From: Ensifer sp. Root278
GTDB lineage: Bacteria > Pseudomonadota > Alphaproteobacteria > Rhizobiales > Rhizobiaceae
Length of the DNA stretch: 64,000 nucleotides
Assembly: GCF_001429285.1 (NCBI RefSeq)
Contig: NZ_LMJJ01000034.1
Span: 125,159-189,158 of the forward strand
Direction of reading: 5' to 3'
Below, piece after piece: positions 8,793 to 64,000 of the stretch. The translations under genes were made by a program, and so were the position numbers. The notes under the pieces were generated by a model. The model ran no database searches. It had not been told where the DNA came from and saw only the letters and a program-made list of their open reading frames with translations. Within the stretch, counting starts at the first letter, position 1. Each line of letters begins with the position of its first letter.

Positions 8793-8856
8793 CGCTGCAA
8801 AGAGGGAAATGAAAAACAGATCAATCGCTCTATGGGGGATTGAGGATTGAGAAAAA

Positions 8857-8901
8857 TGGTCGGAGCGGCGGGATTCGAACCCACGACCCCTTGACCCCCA
8901 G
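8857..8901 (-). other. attL: 3' part of tRNA-Pro(GGG), positions 32-76
   Basis: Read on the minus strand this 45-nt piece gives the anticodon loop CTGGGGG, 3' anticodon stem, T-arm, acceptor strand and CCA of a proline tRNA. At tRNA position 31 and upstream, the expected stem and D-arm are replaced by unrelated DNA. The break inside the anticodon loop is a classic tyrosine-integrase crossover point. The integrase-proximal end should carry the same 45 nt joined to the real 5' half, reforming a working tRNA. Confidence 0.85.
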
Positions 8902-9189
8902 GAGAGAGGTCTACTTTGTTGGAGGCCTTGTAGCGCAGGCGATTGCGCCGTGTCTAGATCCCAACTTCGGGAATTATTTCGGGACTCAGCGTCACGACCT
9001 TGCATCCGCATCAATTCTAAATCGCGGATGCAGCGCGCCGCGAGTTTCCATTTGACCCCGCTCAACATGTCAAAGTTACTATCCATTGCGCCTCCGGCGG
9101 CGCACAATGAGATTATCGCTGGACTTTAAGAAGGGCTCCGGCGGCTGGGAGATCATATGCGCTTTCGCCCCAAGGGAGGAAACTGCGCT

Positions 9190-9690
9190 ATGTTTTATCC
9201 GCAGAAATCCGGTTACATTCTGCCTCAAGACTTCACTGTCGTCTCGACGGTCTATGAGAAGGTCGTGAATGCGCGCGCAATAAGCCGCCAAAGCGACGAG
9301 GGGGAGTGGCTGGCTCGCCGCACCCTCGAATTGTTCATGAGCGGCACGCGTGATGCGCGGGAACTCGAAGCGCGCTTGAAGGAGGTCAGCCTTTCGATTG
9401 ACCACACGATGACGGCCAGCGGCGGCACCACCGTCGTAGATTTGTTGCCCGACTTGTCGGCATGGGCGCGGAGCCTGACTGCCTCGCCGAGAGAGGCGAC
9501 TGCTCTCACCGAACAAACGCTCGAATATGCCATCGACCATATAGAAGAATTCATTGCTATCTCGGACGTCAGAGGGTGGTTGGTGCGCCTGATGGTGGAG
9601 CTCCGCCTGGGCCGTCGACAGTTGCAAAGATCAGCGCTTAATAGAGATGGTAAACCTCCATCTCCTCGGCCCGCTGGCCGACCCTCTTAA
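9190..9690 (+). CDS. Small helical protein, single copy of the SGTR repeat domain
   Basis: Unrecognised protein of 166 residues; ATG 9190 is chosen over 9157 because GGGAGG sits just upstream. Residues about 8-62 align without gaps to both halves of the duplicated protein at 14654: an ILP start, a V..V core, then SR.S...E..ARR......SGTR.....L. The remainder is helical and unmatched. Its 3' end overlaps the ligase gene tail-to-tail by 53 bp. No catalytic motif is seen. Lies 0.3 kb inside attL, so part of the cargo arm. Confidence 0.65.
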   Translation: MFYPQKSGYILPQDFTVVSTVYEKVVNARAISRQSDEGEWLARRTLELFMSGTRDARELEARLKEVSLSIDHTMTASGGTTVVDLLPDLSAWARSLTASPREATALTEQTLEYAIDHIEEFIAISDVRGWLVRLMVELRLGRRQLQRSALNRDGKPPSPRPAGRPS

Positions 9691-10612
9691 ATGACGGATG
9701 CCGCAGTTTGCCGTCCTGTGTCCAGGCTCGGTACTCGACCTCCGCCACGAGCAGCGGTTCGGAGAAGATCGCACCCTTGCGTTTCAGTGCCACCGGCGGC
9801 CGCCCCGCGGGGATAGCATCGAGCAGTTCGCGAAGCTGCACCGATTCCTTGTTGCTCCACCCGGTACCGCAGCCGCCGACGTAGACGAGGCCGTCGCCCG
9901 TCTTGGCAGCCAGCAGCAGGCGACCGATCGCACCTGGCACCGTCGATCGCTCATAGCCGACGATCACGAAGCTGTCGCGCCGCGTGCATTTGATCTTGAG
10001 CCATTCCGGCCGGCGGCCCGACCGATAGGGCTTGTCTCGACGCTTTGCGATGATGCCTTCGAGGCCGAGCTCGCAAGCGGCGCGAAAGAACTCGGCGCCC
10101 TCGGCGTGCACCTCCTCCGAGAAGCGAATCGCGCCAGTCCTGCCGGCGACGATCGGTTCGAGCAGTTGCCGGCGCTCGACTAAGGGCATCATCCGGAGGT
10201 CTTGGCCGTCGAGATAGAGAAGATCGAAGGCGAAGAAGATGATCTCTGCGGCATCGTGCAGGCTCGGACGCCTGCCGACCGCGCGCTGCAGCAGACCAAA
10301 ATCGGAGCGGCCCTGGTCGTCGAGCACGACAGCCTCGCCATCAATGATCATTGTCGCATGGCCGAGCTCGCGCGCCTCGGTGACGATCGAGCCGAACTTC
10401 TTGGACCAATCATATCCGCCGCGCGTGATCGCCCTCACCTCGCTTGGCTCGACGTGCACCGCCAGTCGGTACCCGTCCCACTTCACCTCGAAGGCCCACT
10501 CCGGACCCTTCGGCGGCTTGTCGACGAGGGTTGCGACGCAGGGATCGACCCGCCGCGGCATCGGCTCGGACAGCGGTGTGGGAGTTGATCTCTTCCGAGG
10601 TGTTTTAGCCAT
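9638..10612 (-). CDS. ATP-dependent DNA ligase (LigD ligase-domain family)
   Basis: Stand-alone ligase of 324 residues, the size of the LigD adenylation plus OB domains without polymerase or nuclease domains. Motif I is EVKWDGYR with the adenylated Lys at 44; motif III FFAFDLLYLDG, motif IV EGIIAKRRD and motif V WLKIKC are all present, so it should be active. It would seal nicks or double-strand breaks. No Ku gene is visible in the window. In S. meliloti some non-homologous end-joining genes are reported under the general stress sigma factor RpoE2, which fits the stress promoters in this arm. Confidence 0.88.
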   Translation of the reverse strand: MAKTPRKRSTPTPLSEPMPRRVDPCVATLVDKPPKGPEWAFEVKWDGYRLAVHVEPSEVRAITRGGYDWSKKFGSIVTEARELGHATMIIDGEAVVLDDQGRSDFGLLQRAVGRRPSLHDAAEIIFFAFDLLYLDGQDLRMMPLVERRQLLEPIVAGRTGAIRFSEEVHAEGAEFFRAACELGLEGIIAKRRDKPYRSGRRPEWLKIKCTRRDSFVIVGYERSTVPGAIGRLLLAAKTGDGLVYVGGCGTGWSNKESVQLRELLDAIPAGRPPVALKRKGAIFSEPLLVAEVEYRAWTQDGKLRHPSFKRVGQRAEEMEVYHLY

Positions 10613-11848: not shown

Positions 11849-11873
11849 GGAACGACTTTGATGACCGTGCGTT
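11849..11873 (+). promoter_or_regulatory. EcfG/RpoE2-type promoter (GGAAC-N16-CGTT)
   Basis: GGAAC at 11849-11853 and CGTT at 11870-11873 with 16 nt between match the general-stress sigma factor promoter of alphaproteobacteria exactly. Transcription should begin near 11880 and meet a terminator at 11921-11957, with no gene between. Confidence 0.65.
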
Positions 11874-11879
11874 ATTAGA

Positions 11880-11957
11880 CCGGGCTCCGTTTCTTCCGGG
11901 GCTCTGCCACCCTTCCTTCTGGCCCCGGTCGACGCGTTTCGGGGCCATTCTTTTTTT
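11880..11957 (+). ncRNA. Candidate stress sRNA 1 (about 78 nt)
   Basis: Bounded by the promoter above and the hairpin GGCCCCG/CGGGGCC (11921-11927, 11940-11946) followed by ATTCTTTTTTT. A second, competing hairpin CCGGGGC (11896-11902) with 11921-11928 would present an 18-nt C/U-rich loop containing ACCCTTCCTTCT, complementary to Shine-Dalgarno-like purine tracts. No open reading frame of note. Inference from promoter plus terminator only; an mRNA leader is excluded by the T-run but read-through is possible. Confidence 0.5.
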
Positions 11958-11977
11958 GGCTCGCTCCCTGCCTGCTG

Positions 11978-12002
11978 GGAACCTTTTCGCCGTATGTGCG
12001 TT
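11978..12002 (+). promoter_or_regulatory. EcfG/RpoE2-type promoter
   Basis: GGAAC 11978-11982, 16-nt spacer, CGTT 11999-12002: exact match. It lies 20 bp after the terminator of candidate sRNA 1. Confidence 0.65.
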
Positions 12003-12008
12003 TCTGGC

Positions 12009-12114
12009 GTGTCCTGATCCCGACCCCCCCTCGGGGCAGGCCGGCTTCACCAAATCCCCGGAGTGAAGTCCGAAGGAGCCTCTGGCCTCGTCACCCCGAC
12101 GAGGCCATTTCTTT
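12009..12114 (+). ncRNA. Candidate stress sRNA 2 (about 105 nt)
   Basis: Begins after the promoter at 11978-12002. It contains the hairpin CCCGA/TCGGG with a loop of seven C residues (12019-12035), then ends at the strong hairpin GGCCTCGTC/GACGAGGCC (12084-12092, 12098-12106) followed by ATTTCTTT. C-rich exposed loops are typical of alphaproteobacterial sRNAs that bind ribosome sites. No convincing ORF. Confidence 0.5.
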
Positions 12115-12152
12115 GCGCAGTCTCCATAGGCGAAGGAAAGCGCACGCGGCTG

Positions 12153-12177
12153 GGAACAATGCTCGTACGGACGGGTT
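12153..12177 (+). promoter_or_regulatory. EcfG-type promoter of the BON gene (GGAAC-N16-GGTT)
   Basis: GGAAC 12153-12157 and GGTT 12174-12177, spacing 16; one mismatch in the -10 element. The BON gene starts 27 nt downstream, a normal leader length. Confidence 0.55.
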
Positions 12178-12203
12178 GGAACTCCAATAAAGGAGTTCTG
12201 GCG

Positions 12204-12602
12204 ATGATCCTAATCCCACCCGAATTTGGCTGTCGCGCCGGGGAGGGGTCTGATTCCTCGGGACTTATCGCCTCCCTAAAATATGCGCTGGCGGCCGAAG
12301 CTCCATTTGATACGCAAGGCCTCTGCTTTAGAGTGCTCGGAAACAGCGTCGTGATCGAGGGCCAAGTAAGTGCCCCCGGCGCGGACGAGTTTATCCGCAG
12401 GGTGGCTGAGGATATAGCGGGCGCCGATCGGGTTGTCGTACGTGTCGGGTGTCCCGTCGGACCATTTCCGAACGGTCCACTGGATAAAGGTTCGGACCCC
12501 GGCGACCGAAGCCTGGCCATCGGAGCGAAAATTGCGCAACGGGTGGTAGTAGTCCCGCCTCCCCGTCTGCGGAGTTGGTTGGATAAAAAAAGGCCCCGCT
12601 GA
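12204..12602 (+). CDS. BON-domain protein
   Basis: 132 residues; ATG 12204 is preceded by AGGAG at 12191. Residues about 18-80 look like a BON domain: helix (LIASLKYALAAE), strand CFRVLGNSVVIEGQV with the domain's typical VxGxV turn, helix ADEFIRRVAEDI, strand DRVVVRV. BON domains bind phospholipid surfaces and are common in stress proteins. No signal peptide is seen, so cytosolic. Upstream EcfG-type promoter at 12153. Its 3' end converges on the minus-strand sRNA terminator. Confidence 0.65.
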   Translation: MILIPPEFGCRAGEGSDSSGLIASLKYALAAEAPFDTQGLCFRVLGNSVVIEGQVSAPGADEFIRRVAEDIAGADRVVVRVGCPVGPFPNGPLDKGSDPGDRSLAIGAKIAQRVVVVPPPRLRSWLDKKRPR

Positions 12603-12745
12603 ACGGGACCTGAGGCGAACCGGCGCCCGGCTTTTGCCGAGAAACTGCGAGCATCAATAACCTCGGTAGGCCCCACACCTAGCGGGGACGCTAATGGCAG
12701 CGGGGCCTAGAGGCGCCTCGATCGACCGGGTTGAGGATCGAGAGC
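12585..12745 (-). ncRNA. Candidate minus-strand stress sRNA, copy A (about 160 nt)
   Basis: Runs from an EcfG promoter (12753-12777, minus) to a terminator hairpin at 12592-12610 (stem GGTCCCG/CGGGGCC) followed on the minus strand by seven T (12585-12591). Inner hairpins include CGGC/GCCG around 12630 and AGGCCCC/GGGGCCT about 12669-12710. The whole unit is repeated at 15185-15348. No plausible ORF is conserved on this strand (frames break between copies), so a non-coding RNA is favoured. Confidence 0.55.
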
Positions 12746-12752
12746 AGCTGAA

Positions 12753-12777
12753 AACGTAGGGCGGCGGAAAAGGTTCC
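12753..12777 (-). promoter_or_regulatory. EcfG-type promoter, minus strand, sRNA copy A
   Basis: Plus strand reads AACG (12753-12756)-N16-GTTCC (12773-12777), i.e. GGAAC-N16-CGTT on the minus strand: exact match. The inverted repeat 12781-12798 lies directly upstream of the -35 element. Confidence 0.65.
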
Positions 12778-12843
12778 ACCATGGGACTTCAGTCCCATAT
12801 GGCCGCGCAAAGGTCGTAGGTTCGTTGTCGCACCGCCGCATAG

Positions 12844-12868
12844 GGAACATTCCGCATCGGCGACCGTT
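12844..12868 (+). promoter_or_regulatory. EcfG/RpoE2-type promoter
   Basis: GGAAC 12844-12848 and CGTT 12865-12868, spacer 16: exact match. This segment (12800-13014) is missing from the duplicated copy B. Confidence 0.65.
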
Positions 12869-12874
12869 GTGCAT

Positions 12875-13003
12875 TGCCGATGACCGCACGGATCAAAGGC
12901 TGGGGTTCCATCGACAGTTTTAAGAATGCGGCCCCTTATGTTACACGATCGGTATAGTACGCGCGCTCTGAGGCCCCGTCGGAAACGACGGGGCCATTTC
13001 TTT
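12875..13003 (+). ncRNA. Candidate stress sRNA 3 (about 130 nt)
   Basis: Begins after the promoter at 12844-12868 and ends at a perfect 9-bp hairpin GGCCCCGTC/GACGGGGCC (12972-12980, 12987-12995) followed by ATTTCTTT, the same terminator style as sRNAs 1 and 2. The interior holds no gene. The next gene starts 245 nt after the terminator, so a simple leader is unlikely. Confidence 0.45.
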
Positions 13004-13014
13004 GAGGCAAGCAC

Positions 13015-13555
13015 CTCGGACTTAGGTCTGATAACTCCCCCGCAAAGGTCCTACCCGCATTGCCGAATCTCATTCGCGTTGCCATTCCTAGTTGAGCGTC
13101 AACCGCACTTGGCGCGAGTGACCCCGGAGCGCGTCTGCGCGCTCTGGGGTCCGGCTCTCTACCCCCAAATTTTAGGAACCATTTCTGCGCCTAGCGGATC
13201 TACTTAGTGCCGCCCTACCCTTCCTGCTGGATCAAAGGAGGATTGAGATGGCCCAAAGCAAGCGCCGAATGATGAAGCCGAGCGAAATACCAGATTTCGT
13301 GTCTGAGCTGATTGCGGACGGCTGGGAGATCACCGCCATAGGCCACGACAAGTACGTGCTTGGCGATATCGAGGAACAGCATCGAGCAAGAGACGAACTC
13401 GACCGCATAACCGAAAAGTACGGCGACCGCGATAGCCTGAAGCTGGAGATTGTCGCCTACCTCTGGTCGATCGGGCGATACATAGAGATTGCCTCAGAAG
13501 GCACGCGGCATTAGCGCCCACCGAAGCACTAGGCTCAGTACCCATTACTCTGGCA
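13015..13555. repeat. Segmental duplication module 2, copy A (88-aa gene and its leader)
   Basis: Matches 15489-16011. Copy A keeps a hairpin CCCCGGAGCGCG/CGCGCTCTGGGG (13122-13148) that copy B has lost by a 24-nt deletion between TCT repeats. At its right end copy A runs into CCTGTTTGTGTGGT (about 13567), a 14-nt match to the start of the GFA gene that follows copy B. Confidence 0.8.
13248..13514 (+). CDS. 88-aa hypothetical protein, copy A
   Basis: Begins MAQSKRRMMKPSEIPDFVSE after a strong AAAGGAGG site. About 90% identical in protein to the gene at 15701, the other half of the duplication. A basic N-terminus is followed by a predicted alpha/beta segment and a helix HRARDELDRITEKYGDRD. 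No family recognised. Preceded by about 230 nt of leader shared with copy B, and in part with the region before 14654. A GGAAC at 13176 lacks a matching -10 element, so the promoter is unclear. Confidence 0.7.
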   Translation: MAQSKRRMMKPSEIPDFVSELIADGWEITAIGHDKYVLGDIEEQHRARDELDRITEKYGDRDSLKLEIVAYLWSIGRYIEIASEGTRH

Positions 13556-13623
13556 GGCTGCAACCACCTGTTTGTGTGGTGAACAGCGCGGGCCGATTTC
13601 GCCTTGCATCTGGCGATTTCAAC

Positions 13624-13648
13624 GGAACCTGGAAGGTGCCGGGACGTT
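13624..13648 (+). promoter_or_regulatory. EcfG/RpoE2-type promoter of the YidB-like gene
   Basis: GGAAC 13624-13628, N16, CGTT 13645-13648: exact match, 78 nt before the ATG at 13727. Confidence 0.65.
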
Positions 13649-13726: not shown

Positions 13727-14287
13727 ATGGTTAGCAACGCATTGAAGGCGCTTCTGGGGGTTCTGGCGGTCGCCGGCTACCAGAACCGGGATAAAATTGG
13801 CGAGTTGTTGAAGGGGCTCAGAAACCCGGCACAACTCGGACCTGATGGTCAACCGCAAGCGGGCGGAGGATTGGGCGATCTTCTCGGAGGACTGGCGGGC
13901 GGCAGCCAAACGGGCATGGGTGGTCTCGGAGGTCTTGGTGGCCTGTTTGGGGGCGCTGCCTCAGGAGGTGGGCTCGGTGGAAGTCTTGGCGAGTTGCTCC
14001 GGCAGTTTGAACAGAAGGGGCACGGCGAAACGGCTAACTCATGGGTTCGCCCCGGGGAGAATAAGCCAGTCGGCGATCGCGAGCTGTCCGAGGTGCTTGG
14101 CCCAGAGGTGCTCAACGACCTCTCGGCACGCACAGGCCTGCCCCCCGCGGAAATTCTAAGCCGTTTGAGCCGCGAACTTCCGACGGCCGTTGACGATCTC
14201 ACTCCGAACGGCCAGTTGCCATCTGATGTGGATGACGAGGCAGGCGCGCCCGGCTCCGTCCCGTCGGTGAAGCCCCAGATCGTGTGA
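13727..14287 (+). CDS. YidB-like protein (DUF937 family)
   Basis: 186 residues; ATG 13727 follows CAGGGAGACGAG. The layout is typical of YidB/DUF937: an N-terminal helix (SNALKALLGVLAVAGYQNRDKI), a long Gly/Leu-rich linker (about 45-105), then a C-terminal helical part (LSEVLGPEVLNDLSARTGLPPAEILSRLSRELP) and an acidic tail. Function of the family is unknown; members are often stress-induced, in line with the exact EcfG promoter upstream. Probably cytosolic. Confidence 0.75.
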   Translation: MVSNALKALLGVLAVAGYQNRDKIGELLKGLRNPAQLGPDGQPQAGGGLGDLLGGLAGGSQTGMGGLGGLGGLFGGAASGGGLGGSLGELLRQFEQKGHGETANSWVRPGENKPVGDRELSEVLGPEVLNDLSARTGLPPAEILSRLSRELPTAVDDLTPNGQLPSDVDDEAGAPGSVPSVKPQIV

Positions 14288-14653: not shown

Positions 14654-15145
14654 ATGTCCCTCACGACCAATTCAAAGGTACTTCTCCCTCACGAAATCAA
14701 CCAGATCGAACAGATCTTCGTGGACGTCCTGCGCGGGCTCGGCCTGTCGCGGAATAGTGAGGCCGCAGAGGCAATCGCAAGACGCATTATTAGCTGTTAC
14801 CAAAGCGGCACTCGGGAGAGCGGCGCTCTGAAACACATGATCGGCTACTATAAATCGGCGGCTCTGGAAGAGAACGCGGACTCGCTTTCGCACGGCAACC
14901 AGGCGGTTTCGATCCGGGAGATTGCCGACCAACCACTCAGCGCCGACGAACTTGACATGCTCCAACGGACATTCGATCGAGTGTGCATCTGGTGCAGCAT
15001 CCCGCGATACGGAAAACGTGCCGATCGGCTGGCCCGCCACATTACCGAACAGTTCCGGCAAGGCTTGTGGGATGAAGCCGCTCTTTTCGAGAGTGCCATG
15101 TGGTTGGAGGGAAATTTACACGTCACCCGCACACATGACGCTTGA
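14654..15145 (+). CDS. Duplicated SGTR-type helical repeat protein
   Basis: 163 residues; ATG 14654 has a perfect AGGAGGT 7 nt upstream. Two tandem copies of a helical unit of about 55 residues: about 10-66 (LLPHEINQIEQIFVDVLRGL..SRNSEAAEAIARR..SGTR) and about 95-150 (LSADELDMLQRTFDRV..PRYGKRADRLARH). Each aligns without gaps to residues 8-62 of the gene at 9190. No catalytic motif. Function unknown. The leader (14440-14525) shares an 18-nt string and a GGTTGAGCGTCA motif with the leaders of the two 88-aa genes. Confidence 0.7.
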   Translation: MSLTTNSKVLLPHEINQIEQIFVDVLRGLGLSRNSEAAEAIARRIISCYQSGTRESGALKHMIGYYKSAALEENADSLSHGNQAVSIREIADQPLSADELDMLQRTFDRVCIWCSIPRYGKRADRLARHITEQFRQGLWDEAALFESAMWLEGNLHVTRTHDA

Positions 15146-15184: not shown

Positions 15185-15348
15185 AAAAAAACGGCCCCGC
15201 TGAAGCAGGACCGGCGAGGTGAACCAGCGCCCGGCTTTTGCCGAGAATTGCGAGCATCATTCACCTCGGTAGGCCCCACACCTAGCGGGGACGCTAATGG
15301 CAGCCGGGCCTAGAGGCGCCTCGATCGACCGGGTTGAGGATCGAGAGC
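15185..15348 (-). ncRNA. Candidate minus-strand stress sRNA, copy B (about 164 nt)
   Basis: Second copy of the sRNA at 12585. Terminator stem GGTCCTGC/GCGGGGCC (15193-15212; two G-U pairs keep the stem despite substitutions), then seven T on the minus strand. The promoter is at 15356-15380. It converges on the end of the 14654 gene. Confidence 0.55.
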
Positions 15349-15355
15349 ATTACAA

Positions 15356-15380
15356 AACGTAGGGGGGAGGAAAAGGTTCC
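15356..15380 (-). promoter_or_regulatory. EcfG-type promoter, minus strand, sRNA copy B
   Basis: Plus strand AACG (15356-15359)-N16-GTTCC (15376-15380). The spacer differs from copy A at several bases while both boxes are unchanged. Confidence 0.65.
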
Positions 15381-15488
15381 GCCATGGGGCTTCCCCCCAT
15401 ATGGCCGCGGCCTTCGGAAGCAAAAAGGAGGACGCGACGCGGATGGCCCAACTCCACCCTGCATTAAGGGCTATCGTCATTCGGTCAC

Positions 15489-16011
15489 CGCCTCGGACTT
15501 AGGTCTGATACTCTCCCCGCAAAGGTCCTACCCGCATTGCCGAATCTCATTCGCGTTGCCATTCCTAGTTGAGCGTCAACCGCACTTGGCGCGAGTGACC
15601 CCGGAGCGCGTCTACCCCCAAATTTTAGGAACCATTTCTGCGCCTAGCGGATCTACTTAGTGCCGCCCTACCCTTCCTGCTCGATCAAAGGAGGATTGAG
15701 ATGGCCCAAAGCAAGCGGCGAATGATGAAGCCGAGCGAAATACCGGATTTCGTGTCTGAGATGATTGCGGCCGGCTGCGAGATCATGGCCATAGGCCACG
15801 ACAGGTACGTGCTTGGCGATATCGAGGAACAGCATCGAGCAAGAGACGAACTCGACCGCATCACCGAGAAGTACGGCGACCGCGATCCCCTGAAGCTGGA
15901 GATTGTCGCCTACCTCTGGTCGATCGGGCGATACATAGAGCTTGCGTCCGATAGCACGCGACACTAGCGCCCAACGAAGCACTAGGCTCAGGACCCATTA
16001 ATCTGGCAGGC
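15489..16011. repeat. Segmental duplication module 2, copy B
   Basis: Counterpart of 13015-13555; lacks the 24-nt hairpin arm present in copy A. Leads directly into the GFA gene. Confidence 0.8.
15701..15967 (+). CDS. 88-aa hypothetical protein, copy B
   Basis: Paralogue of the gene at 13248 with the same start, length and ribosome site (AAAGGAGG). Substitutions are spread through the protein (for example ELIADGWEI versus EMIAAGCEI), and the frame is intact in both, which suggests both copies are still under selection. Function unknown. Confidence 0.7.
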   Translation: MAQSKRRMMKPSEIPDFVSEMIAAGCEIMAIGHDRYVLGDIEEQHRARDELDRITEKYGDRDPLKLEIVAYLWSIGRYIELASDSTRH

Positions 16012-16059: not shown

Positions 16060-16467
16060 ATGACCGAAACGACTGCTGGCTCCTGTTTGTGTGGTACCGT
16101 TAAATTTCAAATCTCAGGTGAGTTTGAGAGCTTCTTTCTTTGTCACTGCAAGCGCTGTCGAAAGGACACGGGGTCTGCACATGCGGCCAATTTGTTTTCA
16201 TCGACAGCGACGATAATTTGGGTTTCTGGTCATGACAGCATCCAGACCTACCGGGTTCCAGAGACCCGACACGAAAAAAGCTTTTGCACTAAGTGCGGAT
16301 CTGCTCTTCCGAGTGTTCAATTGAAGGGCGCTATGGTGGTTGTACCTGCTGGGAGTATTGATAGCGTGATCGACATCCGACCAAGTGCGCATATCTGCTT
16401 TGCAAGCCGAGCGGAATGGGACGCGCGTTTGGAAAACATTCCCCAACTAGATGGTCTTCCGGGTTAG
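16060..16467 (+). CDS. GFA-family (CENP-V/GFA domain) zinc enzyme
   Basis: 135 residues matching the small GFA family, named for glutathione-dependent formaldehyde-activating enzyme. The zinc ligands are in place: SCLCGTV near residue 10, CHCKRCRKDTG near 29-38, and CTKCGSALP near 76. The fold probably handles an S-hydroxymethyl or similar thiol adduct, but true substrates of most members are unknown. Follows duplication copy B; a 14-nt trace of its start is found after copy A at about 13567. Confidence 0.82.
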   Translation: MTETTAGSCLCGTVKFQISGEFESFFLCHCKRCRKDTGSAHAANLFSSTATIIWVSGHDSIQTYRVPETRHEKSFCTKCGSALPSVQLKGAMVVVPAGSIDSVIDIRPSAHICFASRAEWDARLENIPQLDGLPG

Positions 16468-45955: not shown

Positions 45956-46032
45956 TGGTTGCGGAGACAGGATTCGAACCTGCAACCTCGTGGTTATGGG
46001 CCACGCGAGCTACTGCTCTGCTCTACTCCGAC
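45956..46032 (-). tRNA. Prophage initiator-like tRNA-Met (anticodon CAT)
   Basis: 77 nt with encoded CCA. D-stem GAGC/GCTC has A11-T24, and position 1/72 is G.A, unpaired: both resemble initiator tRNA. T-arm GCAGG-TTCGAAT-CCTGT is complete. Acceptor pairs 3-70 to 7-66 hold, but 2-71 is T.C. Anticodon arm CGTGG-CCCATAA-CCACG has C in place of the nearly universal T33. It may be functional, specialised or decaying. Confidence 0.65.
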
Positions 46033-49429: not shown

Positions 49430-49797
49430 CGGATCACCTCGACTTCCAAGCCGTGGCAGGCCTTCATGAGCTTCTGCTTGATGCGGAACACGGGCGTGAC
49501 CATGCCCTTCACATCGATGACGCGGCGGCGCTTCATGGCGACGTCCCAAAAGACAAAGTCCGCCCTGTAAGTGCAGACCAGCACGCCATTGATCGTCAGC
49601 GCATACGAGCGCTGCATTTCCACGTCTTCGACCTCGCCCGCCTTTTGGCGGAGCTTCAAGCTGGCATAGTATGCGGCCTCCGCCTTGCTATCGAAGCAGA
49701 TGCCATCGAGAAGCGTGCGCTGGGCCTTGTACTTGTTCCCGCGCTTCGGCTTGGCGATGGCGGCCTGGTACTGGGCGGCGGACAAACGCTCGTTCAT
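49426..49797 (-). CDS. DUF1064 nuclease-like protein
   Basis: 123 residues. DUF1064 features: GNKYKAQRTLLDGICFDSKAEAAYYASLKLRQKAGEV, then TYRADFVFWDVAMKRRRVIDVKG, matching a PD-(D/E)XK arrangement (E in SKAEA, D in RADF, VIDVKG). Likely a small phage nuclease or resolvase. ATGA overlap with the DUF1376 gene. Confidence 0.75.
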   Translation of the reverse strand: MNERLSAAQYQAAIAKPKRGNKYKAQRTLLDGICFDSKAEAAYYASLKLRQKAGEVEDVEMQRSYALTINGVLVCTYRADFVFWDVAMKRRRVIDVKGMVTPVFRIKQKLMKACHGLEVEVIR

Positions 49798-49937
49798 GCC
49801 GCACCTCCGAAGAAGTGTTTTTGTGCAAGTCGCTGCGTCATCCTCTTGAACTCGCGCAGCCGCGAAAATAAATCTTCAGCGGGCGCTGACGAACAGCGCG
49901 TTCCTTGTTGAAAGCCAACGAATTCAGTGAGGTAGAA

Positions 49938-50240
49938 ATGCACCCGAAGATGTTTGACCGGCCAGTTTACCTGCGTGAAAGGAAGGATCTGGTCCTCGAA
50001 ATCACCAACCTCGACGACGCGATCGATTTCCTTGAGGAATGGTCCAAAGGGGATCGCGATATCATTCACGACGCGACCCTGAAGACTTGCTACCTGGCAC
50101 ATGACGGCCACAAGCCAGTCCAGGTGGCGCGTGACGCTCTCCGCTCCTTCGCGAAGAAGAAGGGCATACTTGTGAAGGCTCCCGCGGTCCTGCCGTGGAT
50201 GATTAAAGCCAAGCCGGGCGGCGGTCGAATCTCCCCGTAA
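49938..50240 (+). CDS. Moron: DUF982 family protein, 100 aa
   Basis: ATG 49938 with GAGGTAG upstream. DUF982 layout: RPVYLRERKDLVLEITNLDDAIDFLEEWSKGDRD, then helix VARDALRSFAKKKGIL. DUF982 is a rhizobial expansion family of unknown function. Plus strand within the minus early operon. A second member is at 51805. Confidence 0.7.
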   Translation: MHPKMFDRPVYLRERKDLVLEITNLDDAIDFLEEWSKGDRDIIHDATLKTCYLAHDGHKPVQVARDALRSFAKKKGILVKAPAVLPWMIKAKPGGGRISP

Positions 50241-50314
50241 ACTGACATTCGATCGTGAGAGGCTGCGCTCGCGGCCTCTCTTGTCATAGCCTGATGCTGG
50301 GTATGGAAGCTTGA

Positions 50315-51439
50315 TCATGCCGCGTCCTTTCGCTCTGCGCCTTCAATGCGCCGGACGGCGATGTCCGCGTATTCGGGATTGAGTTCGATCAGGATGCTGC
50401 GAAGGCCAAGCTGTTCGGCGACGAGGCCGACCGTCCCGGAACCTCCAAATGGATCGAACGCGACACCCTGGTTTCGGTCAAAGGCCTCGCAGATCGGGCC
50501 GCAGCCACTAGCCGCGCCGCAGCAACCGCAAACGGACTTAGGAGATCCGGCAGACAGGCAGCGCCGCGCCAGTTCGCGCGGGAACGTGGCGAAGTGGGCC
50601 TCACGGCAGCCCTCGATGTTGAAGGTCCAGACGTTGCGACCATTCCGCATCTCGGGGGTGTAAGTTTCGACCCAAGTTCCTGCGCGGTTCTGACCGGGAG
50701 TGCTCCCCTTGGCGGGCTTGTACTGGCCATCCTTCCGGCGTGCGTGCGCATTGCCGGTCGTCGGCTCTTTCAGCGCCTCCGGATCAAAGAAGTACCTCTC
50801 GCTCTTGGTGAGCAGCCAGACCTTCTCATGGACGGCTGCCGGGCGGTCGTCGACGGATTCCGGCTTGGGGTTCGTCTTGTTCCAGACGATCTCGGATCGG
50901 ACCCACCAGCCATCGTCCTGCAGGGCGATCGCCAGCCTGTTCGGGATCATGCAGAGATCCTTCGGCTTCATGAACCCGCCAGCGACTACACGGCCGCCGC
51001 TCTCGAAGTGCGATTGGCGACCGCCAGACGAGAACGCGCCGCGCGCCTTCGAGTGTTTAGGGTCGTAGACGGGCCCGACGGTCGAGAAAGGCTTATCCCG
51101 GAACGTCCGGTCGTCGCTGCCATCAGTCTTGTAGGCCTCTGCGCTCTTTCCGTTCGGGGTCGCGGCATAGCAATCGCCGTAGTTGACCCAGACGGTACCG
51201 TGCGCCTTGAGAACCCGACGGATCTCGCGGAAGACGCGGACCATGACATCGAGGTGCTCGCCGAGTGTGCGCTCGAGGCCGATCTGGCCTTCGACGCCAT
51301 AGTCGCGCAGGCCCCAGTAAGGCGGGCTGGTGACGACACAGTCGACCGAGCCCGAAGGCATGGCGCGCATAACGTCGAGGCAATCGCCAACATGGATAGT
51401 GCAGCGCCCGTGGAGGATGGAGCGGGTTTCGAAGCTCAT
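50315..51439 (-). CDS. DNA (N4-cytosine or N6-adenine) methyltransferase, beta class
   Basis: 374 residues. Motif IV TSPPYWGLRDY (about 38-48) precedes motif I FDPFGGSGTVGLVAEQLG (about 327-344), the beta order. Between them is the target recognition region. No restriction gene next to it, so an orphan enzyme that probably shields phage DNA or marks regulatory sites. SPPY fits either N4-cytosine or N6-adenine chemistry. Confidence 0.88.
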   Translation of the reverse strand: MSFETRSILHGRCTIHVGDCLDVMRAMPSGSVDCVVTSPPYWGLRDYGVEGQIGLERTLGEHLDVMVRVFREIRRVLKAHGTVWVNYGDCYAATPNGKSAEAYKTDGSDDRTFRDKPFSTVGPVYDPKHSKARGAFSSGGRQSHFESGGRVVAGGFMKPKDLCMIPNRLAIALQDDGWWVRSEIVWNKTNPKPESVDDRPAAVHEKVWLLTKSERYFFDPEALKEPTTGNAHARRKDGQYKPAKGSTPGQNRAGTWVETYTPEMRNGRNVWTFNIEGCREAHFATFPRELARRCLSAGSPKSVCGCCGAASGCGPICEAFDRNQGVAFDPFGGSGTVGLVAEQLGLRSILIELNPEYADIAVRRIEGAERKDAA

Positions 51440-51717: not shown

Positions 51718-51804
51718 GCTTGCCGTAGTGCTACCCAGCACCGCCCCATTGGAACAGTTCTCCCTAATATACGTTTGTGGGAAGCCTGACCCACGGAGGA
51801 CACC

Positions 51805-62488: not shown

Positions 62489-62562
62489 GCGATCTTCTCA
62501 TGACAAGACGTGCTCGCCCGCGTGAAATCCGGCGCGGCCCGCCAAGAACAAGGAGCCGAAGA

Positions 62563-62877
62563 ATGACGGCACCCATGCTACTCGACAGCGAGCAGGCTGC
62601 CCAACTCCTCAACGTTTCCACCCGGACCTTGCGTGAATTCGTGAAGGCTGGCGATATAGCCTATGTGCCGCTCGGCGCCGGCAGATCGAAACCGCGCCTC
62701 GGCTTCACCATGGACGACATAAACGATTTCATAAAAAGCCGGAGAACACGCGAGTGTCCGTCTACAAGCCAAAGAACACCCCGTACTACCACTTCGACTT
62801 CCAAGTCGCAGGTATACGATATTATGGCTCTACGGAAACAGCGAACCGACGCGAAGCAGAAGCCCGGGAGAAGGTAG
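62563..62877 (+). CDS. xis: Excisionase (MerR-like HTH)
   Basis: 104 residues from ATG 62563 with AAGGAG upstream; ATG 62485 in the same frame is a longer option coupled to the HNH gene. MLLDSEQAAQLLNVSTRTLREFVKAGDIAYVPLGAGRSKPRLGFTMDDINDFIKSR is a typical excisionase winged HTH. Its last 124 nt overlap the integrase in another frame, so the Ser/Thr/Lys-rich tail may be non-essential. Confidence 0.8.
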   Translation: MTAPMLLDSEQAAQLLNVSTRTLREFVKAGDIAYVPLGAGRSKPRLGFTMDDINDFIKSRRTRECPSTSQRTPRTTTSTSKSQVYDIMALRKQRTDAKQKPGRR

Positions 62878-63899
62878 AGAAGGATAAGGCCAAGGCGGCC
62901 GCGAAGGCCGCCAAGCACGCCAACGGCGCCGGCCCCCTGACCATCAGCGTTGCTACCGCCCGATATTGGACCGAGATCGGCCAGCACCACGCCAACAGTG
63001 ATACCACCTGGACCGACATCAATCGCCTCGTCGACTATTTCGGTGCGGCGAAGCTCATGTCTGCTATCGGCGACGACGATATCGCGAAGCTCGTCCAGTG
63101 GCGACGAGCCCAGACAGCATGGGGGAAAGCCGAGACGAAGGACAAGAAGCCGATGCGTCTCGTGTCGGCCGCCACCGTGAACCGGTCGACCACGCTCGTC
63201 ATTAAGAAGATTTTCACCCGGGCGAAGCGCACCTGGCGCTACGACTTCCCGCTCGAGCCGAACTGGCGCGACCATTGGCTCAAGGAGCCCGTCGAGCGCG
63301 TCCGCGAACTGAAGCAGACGGAAAGCTCGTCGCTCTATCTCGCCACAAGGGCCGACTATCAGCCGATCTTCGATTTCGTGCGCGCCACAGGCCTGCGCCT
63401 ACAGGAATGCATCCTGCGATGGTCCGAGGTGGACTGGCAGACGGGATGGATTACGAAGCCAGGGAAGAACGATCGACCGGTTAGAACCGCGATCACGAGC
63501 GAGGTGCGGGAGATCCTGCTCCCGCTACGCGGGCATCATCACGAATTCGTGTTCACGTATCAGGCGGCACGCACGCGAACCGGCAAGGCTTCATACAAGG
63601 GAGATGGGGAAGGAAGGAAGAAGGGCGACCGTTATCCGATCACCTACAGCGGGTTGAAAACCCAGTGGAAGAGGATCCGCGGTAAAGCCGGCGTCGAAGA
63701 CTTCCGATTCCATGACTTCCGGCATGATCTGGCGACCAAGCTGTTGCGCGAAACCGGAAACCTCAAAACGGTGCAAAAAGCTCTCAGCCACCGCGATATC
63801 AAGACGACGACACGTTACGCCCACGTGCTCGACGAAGAAGTCGCGGGCGCTCTCGAATCGCTTTCGAAGCGCAGACGTGCACAAAGGAAGAACAAATGA
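62754..63899 (+). CDS. int: Tyrosine integrase
   Basis: 381 residues, GTG start. Catalyses integration at the tRNA-Pro site. Catalytic residues: Arg215 (GLRLQE), His320 and Arg323 (FHDFRHD), His346 (LSHRDI), Tyr355 (TTRYAHV). N-terminal arm-binding and SAM-like core-binding regions (about 1-180) precede. Last gene of the rightward operon. The 101 bp to the window end show no gene and no tRNA. Confidence 0.93.
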   Translation: MSVYKPKNTPYYHFDFQVAGIRYYGSTETANRREAEAREKVEKDKAKAAAKAAKHANGAGPLTISVATARYWTEIGQHHANSDTTWTDINRLVDYFGAAKLMSAIGDDDIAKLVQWRRAQTAWGKAETKDKKPMRLVSAATVNRSTTLVIKKIFTRAKRTWRYDFPLEPNWRDHWLKEPVERVRELKQTESSSLYLATRADYQPIFDFVRATGLRLQECILRWSEVDWQTGWITKPGKNDRPVRTAITSEVREILLPLRGHHHEFVFTYQAARTRTGKASYKGDGEGRKKGDRYPITYSGLKTQWKRIRGKAGVEDFRFHDFRHDLATKLLRETGNLKTVQKALSHRDIKTTTRYAHVLDEEVAGALESLSKRRRAQRKNK

Positions 63900-64000
63900 C
63901 CGGACTGCTTCGGGACTTTTTCGGGACTATCCGTTCCCGAACCCGCGTTTTGAGCGCGATATGTTCCGGTTGCCTCTACTCGACGAGTGGCGGTAGCGAG

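Follow-up and report, generated by a model that had tools for sequence, protein, structure and literature searches.

What does a cluster of promoters for the general stress sigma factor EcfG do in a stretch of rhizobial DNA that also carries phage genes? We analyzed 64,000 nucleotides (nt) of Ensifer sp. Root278 (contig NZ_LMJJ01000034.1, positions 125,159 to 189,158; hereafter the window), in which EcfG-type promoters are crowded between positions 11849 and 15380. The first-pass annotation had interpreted them as a phage-borne array of stress-controlled small RNAs (sRNAs). Sequence comparison supports this interpretation: the predicted RNAs have covarying stems and end in terminators, a promoter stands at a fixed distance upstream of most strong family matches, and the array has a phage location. 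Beyond the earlier annotation, the comparison supports a count of five units and membership in a family that is multi-copy within the genus, and it places such units in four viral sequences, one of them the window prophage. We consider it probable that the array specifies EcfG-driven, trans-acting sRNAs, which would work like GsrN of Caulobacter crescentus via cytosine-rich (C-rich) loops.

A pattern scan found all promoter coordinates of the first-pass annotation to be exact. The motif GGAAC-N16-CGTT occurs on the plus strand at 11849-11873 (unit A), 11978-12002 (unit B), 12844-12868 (unit D) and 13624-13648 (ahead of a YidB-like gene), and on the minus strand at 12753-12777 (unit C1) and 15356-15380 (unit C2). 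The variant GGAAC-N16-GGTT lies on the plus strand at 12153-12177, ahead of an open reading frame (ORF) at 12204-12602. The window has seven exact sites in total, the sole one outside the array being at 51751, and the packing of six of the seven into 3.6 kb has P = 3.5e-5 under random placement of seven sites. When the spacer was allowed to vary (N15-18), seven matches were found in the window, against a mean of 2.53 in shuffled sequences, and seven were reached in one of 100 shuffles. Across the whole genome, the N16-17 motif gave 171 matches, compared with 150 for a reversed control pattern; the motif is thus hardly enriched, and by itself it is weak evidence that would not carry the claim. 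A scan of a contig collection with the pattern alone returned 35 contigs, as expected by chance: one is named Ensifer (E. adhaerens ST2), and the names of the other 34 are spread over many phyla.

Downstream of these promoters, and assuming a transcription start 6 nt after the CGTT box, five short untranslated units can be delineated, which end in terminators of the GGCC...GGCC style with a U-rich tail. The plus-strand units from 11849, 11978 and 12844 reach their terminators as had been proposed, after 78, 106 and 129 nt: unit A (11880-11957), which recurs with its promoter in two viral contigs (L245 and L247); unit B (12009-12114), with a first hairpin bearing a C-rich loop, a second hairpin and a GGCC terminator; and unit D (12875-13003), in which the terminator is strong and hairpin 1 looks degenerate. 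The proposal of three untranslated units holds for these three and was an undercount, since untranslated units with terminators also follow both minus-strand promoters, from 12777 to about 12584 and from 15380 to about 15186. These two, unit C1 (12584-12746, about 163 nt) and unit C2 (15186-15349, about 164 nt), are near-identical copies.

Conservation of the RNAs and their promoters

BLAST searches of the Root278 genome revealed sequences related to units B and C, and the full-unit alignments mostly start at the promoter. From five B-type RNAs, unit B among them, we built a covariance model (R1) that extends from just after CGTT to the terminator and does not include the promoter. R1 had matches at E <= 0.1 in 12 of the 16 genomes of the genus; 44 of its 45 matches were inspected, one weak match in the Root278 genome (E 0.07) being excluded. 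Its broader successor R3, with 32 members and likewise no promoter in the model, gave 72 matches at E <= 0.1 in 10 of the 16 genomes, with 20 in one genome (G001), 11 in Root278 itself (G000) and 10 in another (G014); unit B matches it with E = 4.4e-18. The covariance-model search that the first-pass annotation had suggested, run here with the B-type model R3, thus yielded 31 strong matches (E < 1e-6), of which 26 carry a strict EcfG promoter.

The promoter check covered all 72 R3 matches and accepted promoter starts from -40 to -14. Among the 31 strong matches, the strict motif starts 23 to 26 nt before the match (27 of 31 have it in the relaxed form), where chance would supply 0.02 such cases at offsets -27 to -22, or about 0.1 over the whole interval from -40 to -14 at the same rate. 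Because the five R1 seeds had been picked for their promoters, the count should also be read without them, as 21 of 26; when two further units of locus L048 known from the promoter scan are also set aside, it is 19 of 24. As a negative control, R3 was run against 151 genomes of 109 genera of the family with stricter filters that lose weak matches, and none of the 13 weak matches outside the genus carries an EcfG promoter. The C-type units have a model of their own (R2), which draws on 11 of the 15 C-type places counted in the end. A relaxed promoter is present at 11 of these 15 places, a count that is not independent because several of them were first noticed via their promoters. A palindrome of the ATGGGACTGAAGTCCCAT type, at 12781-12798 in the window, ends just before the -35 element of C1; it is conserved at C-type promoters, being recognizable by eye in 14 of the 15 upstream regions, and could serve as the operator of a second regulator.

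Covariation points to conserved RNA structure in both types. In the model-fitted B-type alignment (32 rows), changes on both sides were found in 20 of 27 pairs, whereas shuffled alignments gave 13.4 (sd 1.6) and slid controls at most 12; the covariation score was 0.363 versus 0.169. In the C-type alignment, fitted in the same way, both-side changes occur in 9 of 24 pairs, against 2.8 in shuffles and at most 3 in slid controls. The loops of the B-type RNAs keep their cytosines: CCCC is found in loop 1 of 27 of the 32 rows and CCC in loop 2 of 29. In Rfam, nothing in the window except a tRNA, and nothing in 17 member loci, scored above the gathering threshold. Membership of any Rfam family was therefore dropped; three matches in the array (E 0.5 to 3) are below threshold.

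Relatives also occur on plasmids, in records named Ensifer adhaerens and Sinorhizobium chiapasense; for unit A, blastn against plasmids found nothing at E <= 0.01. Plasmid pA of S. chiapasense carries a strong R3 match (E = 8e-10) with a strict promoter, as well as a C-type match. Together with the phage phiLM21, which comes from Sinorhizobium sp. LM21 and is discussed below, this indicates that the family is by name not confined to Ensifer. When whole records were searched with R3 under the stricter filters, plasmid pA had four matches (best 2e-8), the S. meliloti replicon pSymB one weak match (E = 0.012) and pSymA none. On plasmid pCTYH.Ch1_2 (G006:C3, L053), a C-type unit occupies an unannotated gap among genes for a general stress protein, a PRC-barrel protein and CsbD.

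Prophage location and the host stress system

The left attachment core of the prophage is a 49-bp direct repeat at 8853-8901, whose second copy (G000:C34:189183-189231) overlaps a tRNA-Pro(GGG) gene; the prophage measures about 55.2 kb. Window positions 8853-8906 are identical to nt 1-54 of phiLM21. The gene identified by Pfam as a phage ATP-dependent DNA ligase (9638-10612, minus strand) marks the phiLM21-like right end, and the segment 9686-10912 is 81.5% identical to phiLM21 49453-50676. At the integrase end, 62547-63998 also matches phiLM21, and the terminase, portal, head and tail genes are located between the two ends. The attachment repeat and the matches at both ends thus place the array inside the prophage, between the ligase and the tail genes. 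The window prophage belongs to the same phage family as the phiLM21-like prophages (PMC12429752, PMC5537653), 25 of which are counted in S. meliloti (PMC12429752), and it uses the same integration gene as phiLM21, which was reported to be integrated in tRNA-Pro(GGG) (PMC5537653).

Similar units are found in other phages. In phiLM21, R3 finds one strong unit (E = 5.3e-13), whose strict EcfG promoter lies exactly 25 nt upstream; a C-type unit is absent at E <= 0.1. We searched eight viral loci, as stretches of about 8.5 to 17 kb rather than whole phage genomes, and four of them contain R3 units at E < 1e-6: the window prophage (L244), L246, which carries the same unit as phiLM21, L245, with A, B and C units, and L247, with three tandem plus-strand units, all units of the latter two stretches having strict promoters. 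The stretches L248, L249, L250 (phi2LM21) and L251 (phi3LM21) gave no unit at E <= 0.1. The earlier description of the array as phage-borne is thus borne out by the attachment repeat, the phiLM21-like gene order, and the like units in phiLM21 and two further viral contigs. A plain chromosomal island of stress genes beside the prophage was also considered, and was overturned by the repeat, the synteny with phiLM21 and the viral contigs.

The surroundings of the other family members were compared by tblastn with the proteins of phiLM21 and the window prophage, in 20 chosen 20-kb regions around R3 matches as well as in L053, L054 and the left part of the window. Six of the 20 regions (L259, L260, L263, L264, L267 and L268) contain a ligase gene of the phiLM21 type, whole or in part, and in a seventh (L269) there are fragments of a tail-block gene with no known function. 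By its coordinates, the unit in L263, L264, L267 and L268 is flanked by the ligase on one side and by tail-block or lysis genes on the other, the arrangement also seen in the window. L053 and L054 showed no match to phage structural or ligase genes.

The host appears to be equipped to read these promoters. A HisKA_2 search was used to find the general stress response (GSR) locus, and PhyR, NepR, EcfG and an HWE kinase are encoded together in one locus of the Root278 genome; the array promoters thus have their sigma factor. The GSR core is on contig C5 and the array on C34, and the GSR locus (L201) had no R3 match up to E = 1.

Near the prophage end, about 250 bp inside the attachment site, lies an ORF at 9157-9690 (plus strand), which overlaps at its 3' end with the ligase ORF of the opposite strand. 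The encoded protein scores above the curated Pfam cut-off for a PhyR-sigma2-like domain (PF22029, E = 2.7e-8). Two relatives of this protein, encoded near sRNA loci, also pass the PF22029 cut-off, and its N-terminus resembles that of a 163-aa protein encoded in the array. The sigma-like domain of PhyR binds NepR, and the domain match makes the prophage protein a candidate for a phage-encoded modulator of the general stress response. A more far-reaching and rather unlikely scheme is that phiLM21-like phages have their own stress-sensing module: the protein would bind NepR or compete with EcfG and so determine how much EcfG is free, EcfG would drive the phage sRNA array and reprogram host or phage translation in stressed lysogens, and host replicons would have taken up these phage sRNAs and expanded them into the multi-copy Ensifer family.

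Possible action of the RNAs and competing explanations

In the explanation we favor, a phiLM21-like temperate phage has integrated at tRNA-Pro(GGG) of an Ensifer and carries the array as an accessory cassette, with five short untranslated transcription units that would each be served by their own EcfG promoter and intrinsic terminator. Under stress, the PhyR-NepR-EcfG switch of the host would free EcfG, which would then transcribe the RNAs from an otherwise quiet prophage. B-type RNAs are predicted to fold as two hairpins presenting C-rich loops, followed by the terminator with its U-rich tail, and the short loop sequences would pair in trans with G-rich stretches, for example ribosome-binding sites, of host or phage mRNAs, most likely as in GsrN. 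Expression of the units, its dependence on EcfG, action in trans, the type of target and a benefit to the lysogen or the phage are what we infer from these features; the pairing of C-rich loops of an EcfG-driven RNA with G-rich mRNA sites is proposed by analogy with GsrN (PMC5869019).

Several observations weigh against this explanation. R3 found no match in six of the 16 genomes of the genus, and five of the 31 strong matches have no strict promoter. The weaker bands are promoter-poor, and some copies may therefore be dead: a strict promoter was found at none of the ten matches with E between 1e-6 and 1e-3 (relaxed, four of ten) and at five of the 22 with E between 1e-2 and 0.1 (relaxed, six), while three of nine in the intervening band have a promoter; in a few of these weaker matches, the promoter falls inside the match. 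For units A and D of the array, the R3 matches are weak (E 0.115 and 0.031, respectively). The B-type and C-type alignments were fitted to their own models, which favors structure; the slid controls nevertheless drop sharply. Thirteen of the 20 R3 regions had no phage ligase, terminase or tail-block gene detectable with our queries. A search of the Root278 genome for complements of loop 2 (14 bases, at most one mismatch) returned three sRNA genes alone, so that recognition, if any, would be via short seeds.

This last result could also be expected if the units were decoys or sponges that titrate other sRNAs, Hfq or a ribonuclease and do not act on mRNA leaders. Such a role would explain the many divergent copies; the high copy number given above and the conservation of structure while the stems vary are in line with it. 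However, C-runs are kept in the loops while the stems change, which suggests selection on loop pairing, and no partner RNA was identified (RNA-RNA pairing among the units was not computed); we regard a decoy role as unlikely. We give still less credence to the possibility that phage recombination has spread what are mostly decaying repeats of little function. Several copies have no promoter or have degenerate hairpins, and the copy number varies, down to the genomes without any R3 match, but most strong matches, from different species and from a sequenced phage, retain the promoter, the loop C-runs and the pairing as a set. That the units are short mRNAs or leaders for a small protein is very improbable: neighboring EcfG promoters do drive ORFs (13624 leads into the YidB-like gene at 13727, and 12153 into the ORF at 12204), but the units are closed by terminators before the next gene and compensatory stem changes conserve their structure.

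Action in trans through C-rich loops is the mode described for GsrN, an sRNA activated by an EcfG-type sigma factor, whose exposed C-rich 5' loop is said to pair with G-rich targets (PMC5869019). The B-type RNAs resemble it in having an exposed cytosine-rich 5' loop. In a comparison by description, the Ensifer units differ from GsrN in being many-copy and phage-borne and in having a second C-rich hairpin. According to the same source, BLASTn detects GsrN homologues in Caulobacteraceae only, typically near the GSR locus, C. crescentus itself excepted; unlike these typical homologues, the array lies away from the ecfG-nepR-phyR locus.

The nearest precedent for a multi-copy RpoE2-dependent sRNA is SmelB126, which has a terminator hairpin and mobile elements near its loci, and which is described as present in four, three and two copies in three S. 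meliloti strains and in five copies in S. medicae WSM419 (PMC3927594, PMC3616915, PMC2873474, PMC7143759). In a one-way test, the R3 model was run on the SmelB126 locus (pSymB 1325476-1325586, in L212) and found nothing up to E = 10; membership of SmelB126 was dropped. SmelB008, listed as an RpoE2-type sRNA of S. meliloti (PMC7143759), matches R3 weakly (E = 0.0011 in 20 kb). The anti-Shine-Dalgarno RNAs SmelA075 and SmelA099, with several C-rich-loop hairpins and several copies per genome, were proposed to block ribosome-binding sites under stress (PMC3927594); they have three or four hairpins, each with CCUCCUCCC, whereas the Ensifer B-type RNAs have two, with CCCC and CCCCC loops, and an EcfG promoter. 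The prophage-encoded sRNA StxS is linked to the host general stress response and acts on RpoS (PMC12197685), whereas the Ensifer phage RNAs are predicted to be under the control of the stress sigma factor of the host. Term searches of the main texts of two phiLM21 papers (PMC12429752, PMC5537653) found no occurrence of sRNA, promoter or non-coding, and a narrow search of the open literature found no paper joining EcfG or RpoE2 with sRNA terms.

If the array is transcribed as predicted, a temperate phage family has its own regulatory RNAs under the general stress sigma factor of the host, and a lysogen would answer stress with phage RNAs; this would suggest that an expanded stress-sRNA family of Ensifer originated from phage cassettes. 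phiLM21, with one strong unit, and the window prophage, with five, offer test cases for effects of prophage sRNAs on host or phage, and covariance models are now available for families without a match in Rfam.

Neighboring genes and repeated segments

Between and beside the units, the array contains several plus-strand ORFs. The ORF after the 12153 promoter encodes 132 aa and has no Pfam match. An ORF of 88 aa, a relative of phiLM21 p069, is found at 13248-13514, and a second copy of it at 15701-15967. The YidB-like protein is encoded at 13727-14287 (PF20159, E = 2.4e-31), and the 163-aa ORF at 14654-15145 recurs beside sRNA units. Elsewhere in the prophage, we noted a gene for a protein of the GFA (glutathione-dependent formaldehyde-activating) family at 16060-16467 (plus strand), and a tRNA-Met gene at 45956-46032 (minus strand), which has a matching tRNA-Met in phiLM21.

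Part of the array is duplicated in several pieces, at 12585-13515 and 15186-15967; the duplication comprises unit C and the 88-aa gene with its leader, whereas unit D is not included. Upstream of both 88-aa genes stands the element GGACTTAGGTCTGATA, at 13018-13033 and 15495-15510, which resembles the palindrome of the C-type promoters. A long G+C-rich inverted repeat, read by eye at 13119-13153 between unit D and the first 88-aa gene, is a possible leader hairpin.

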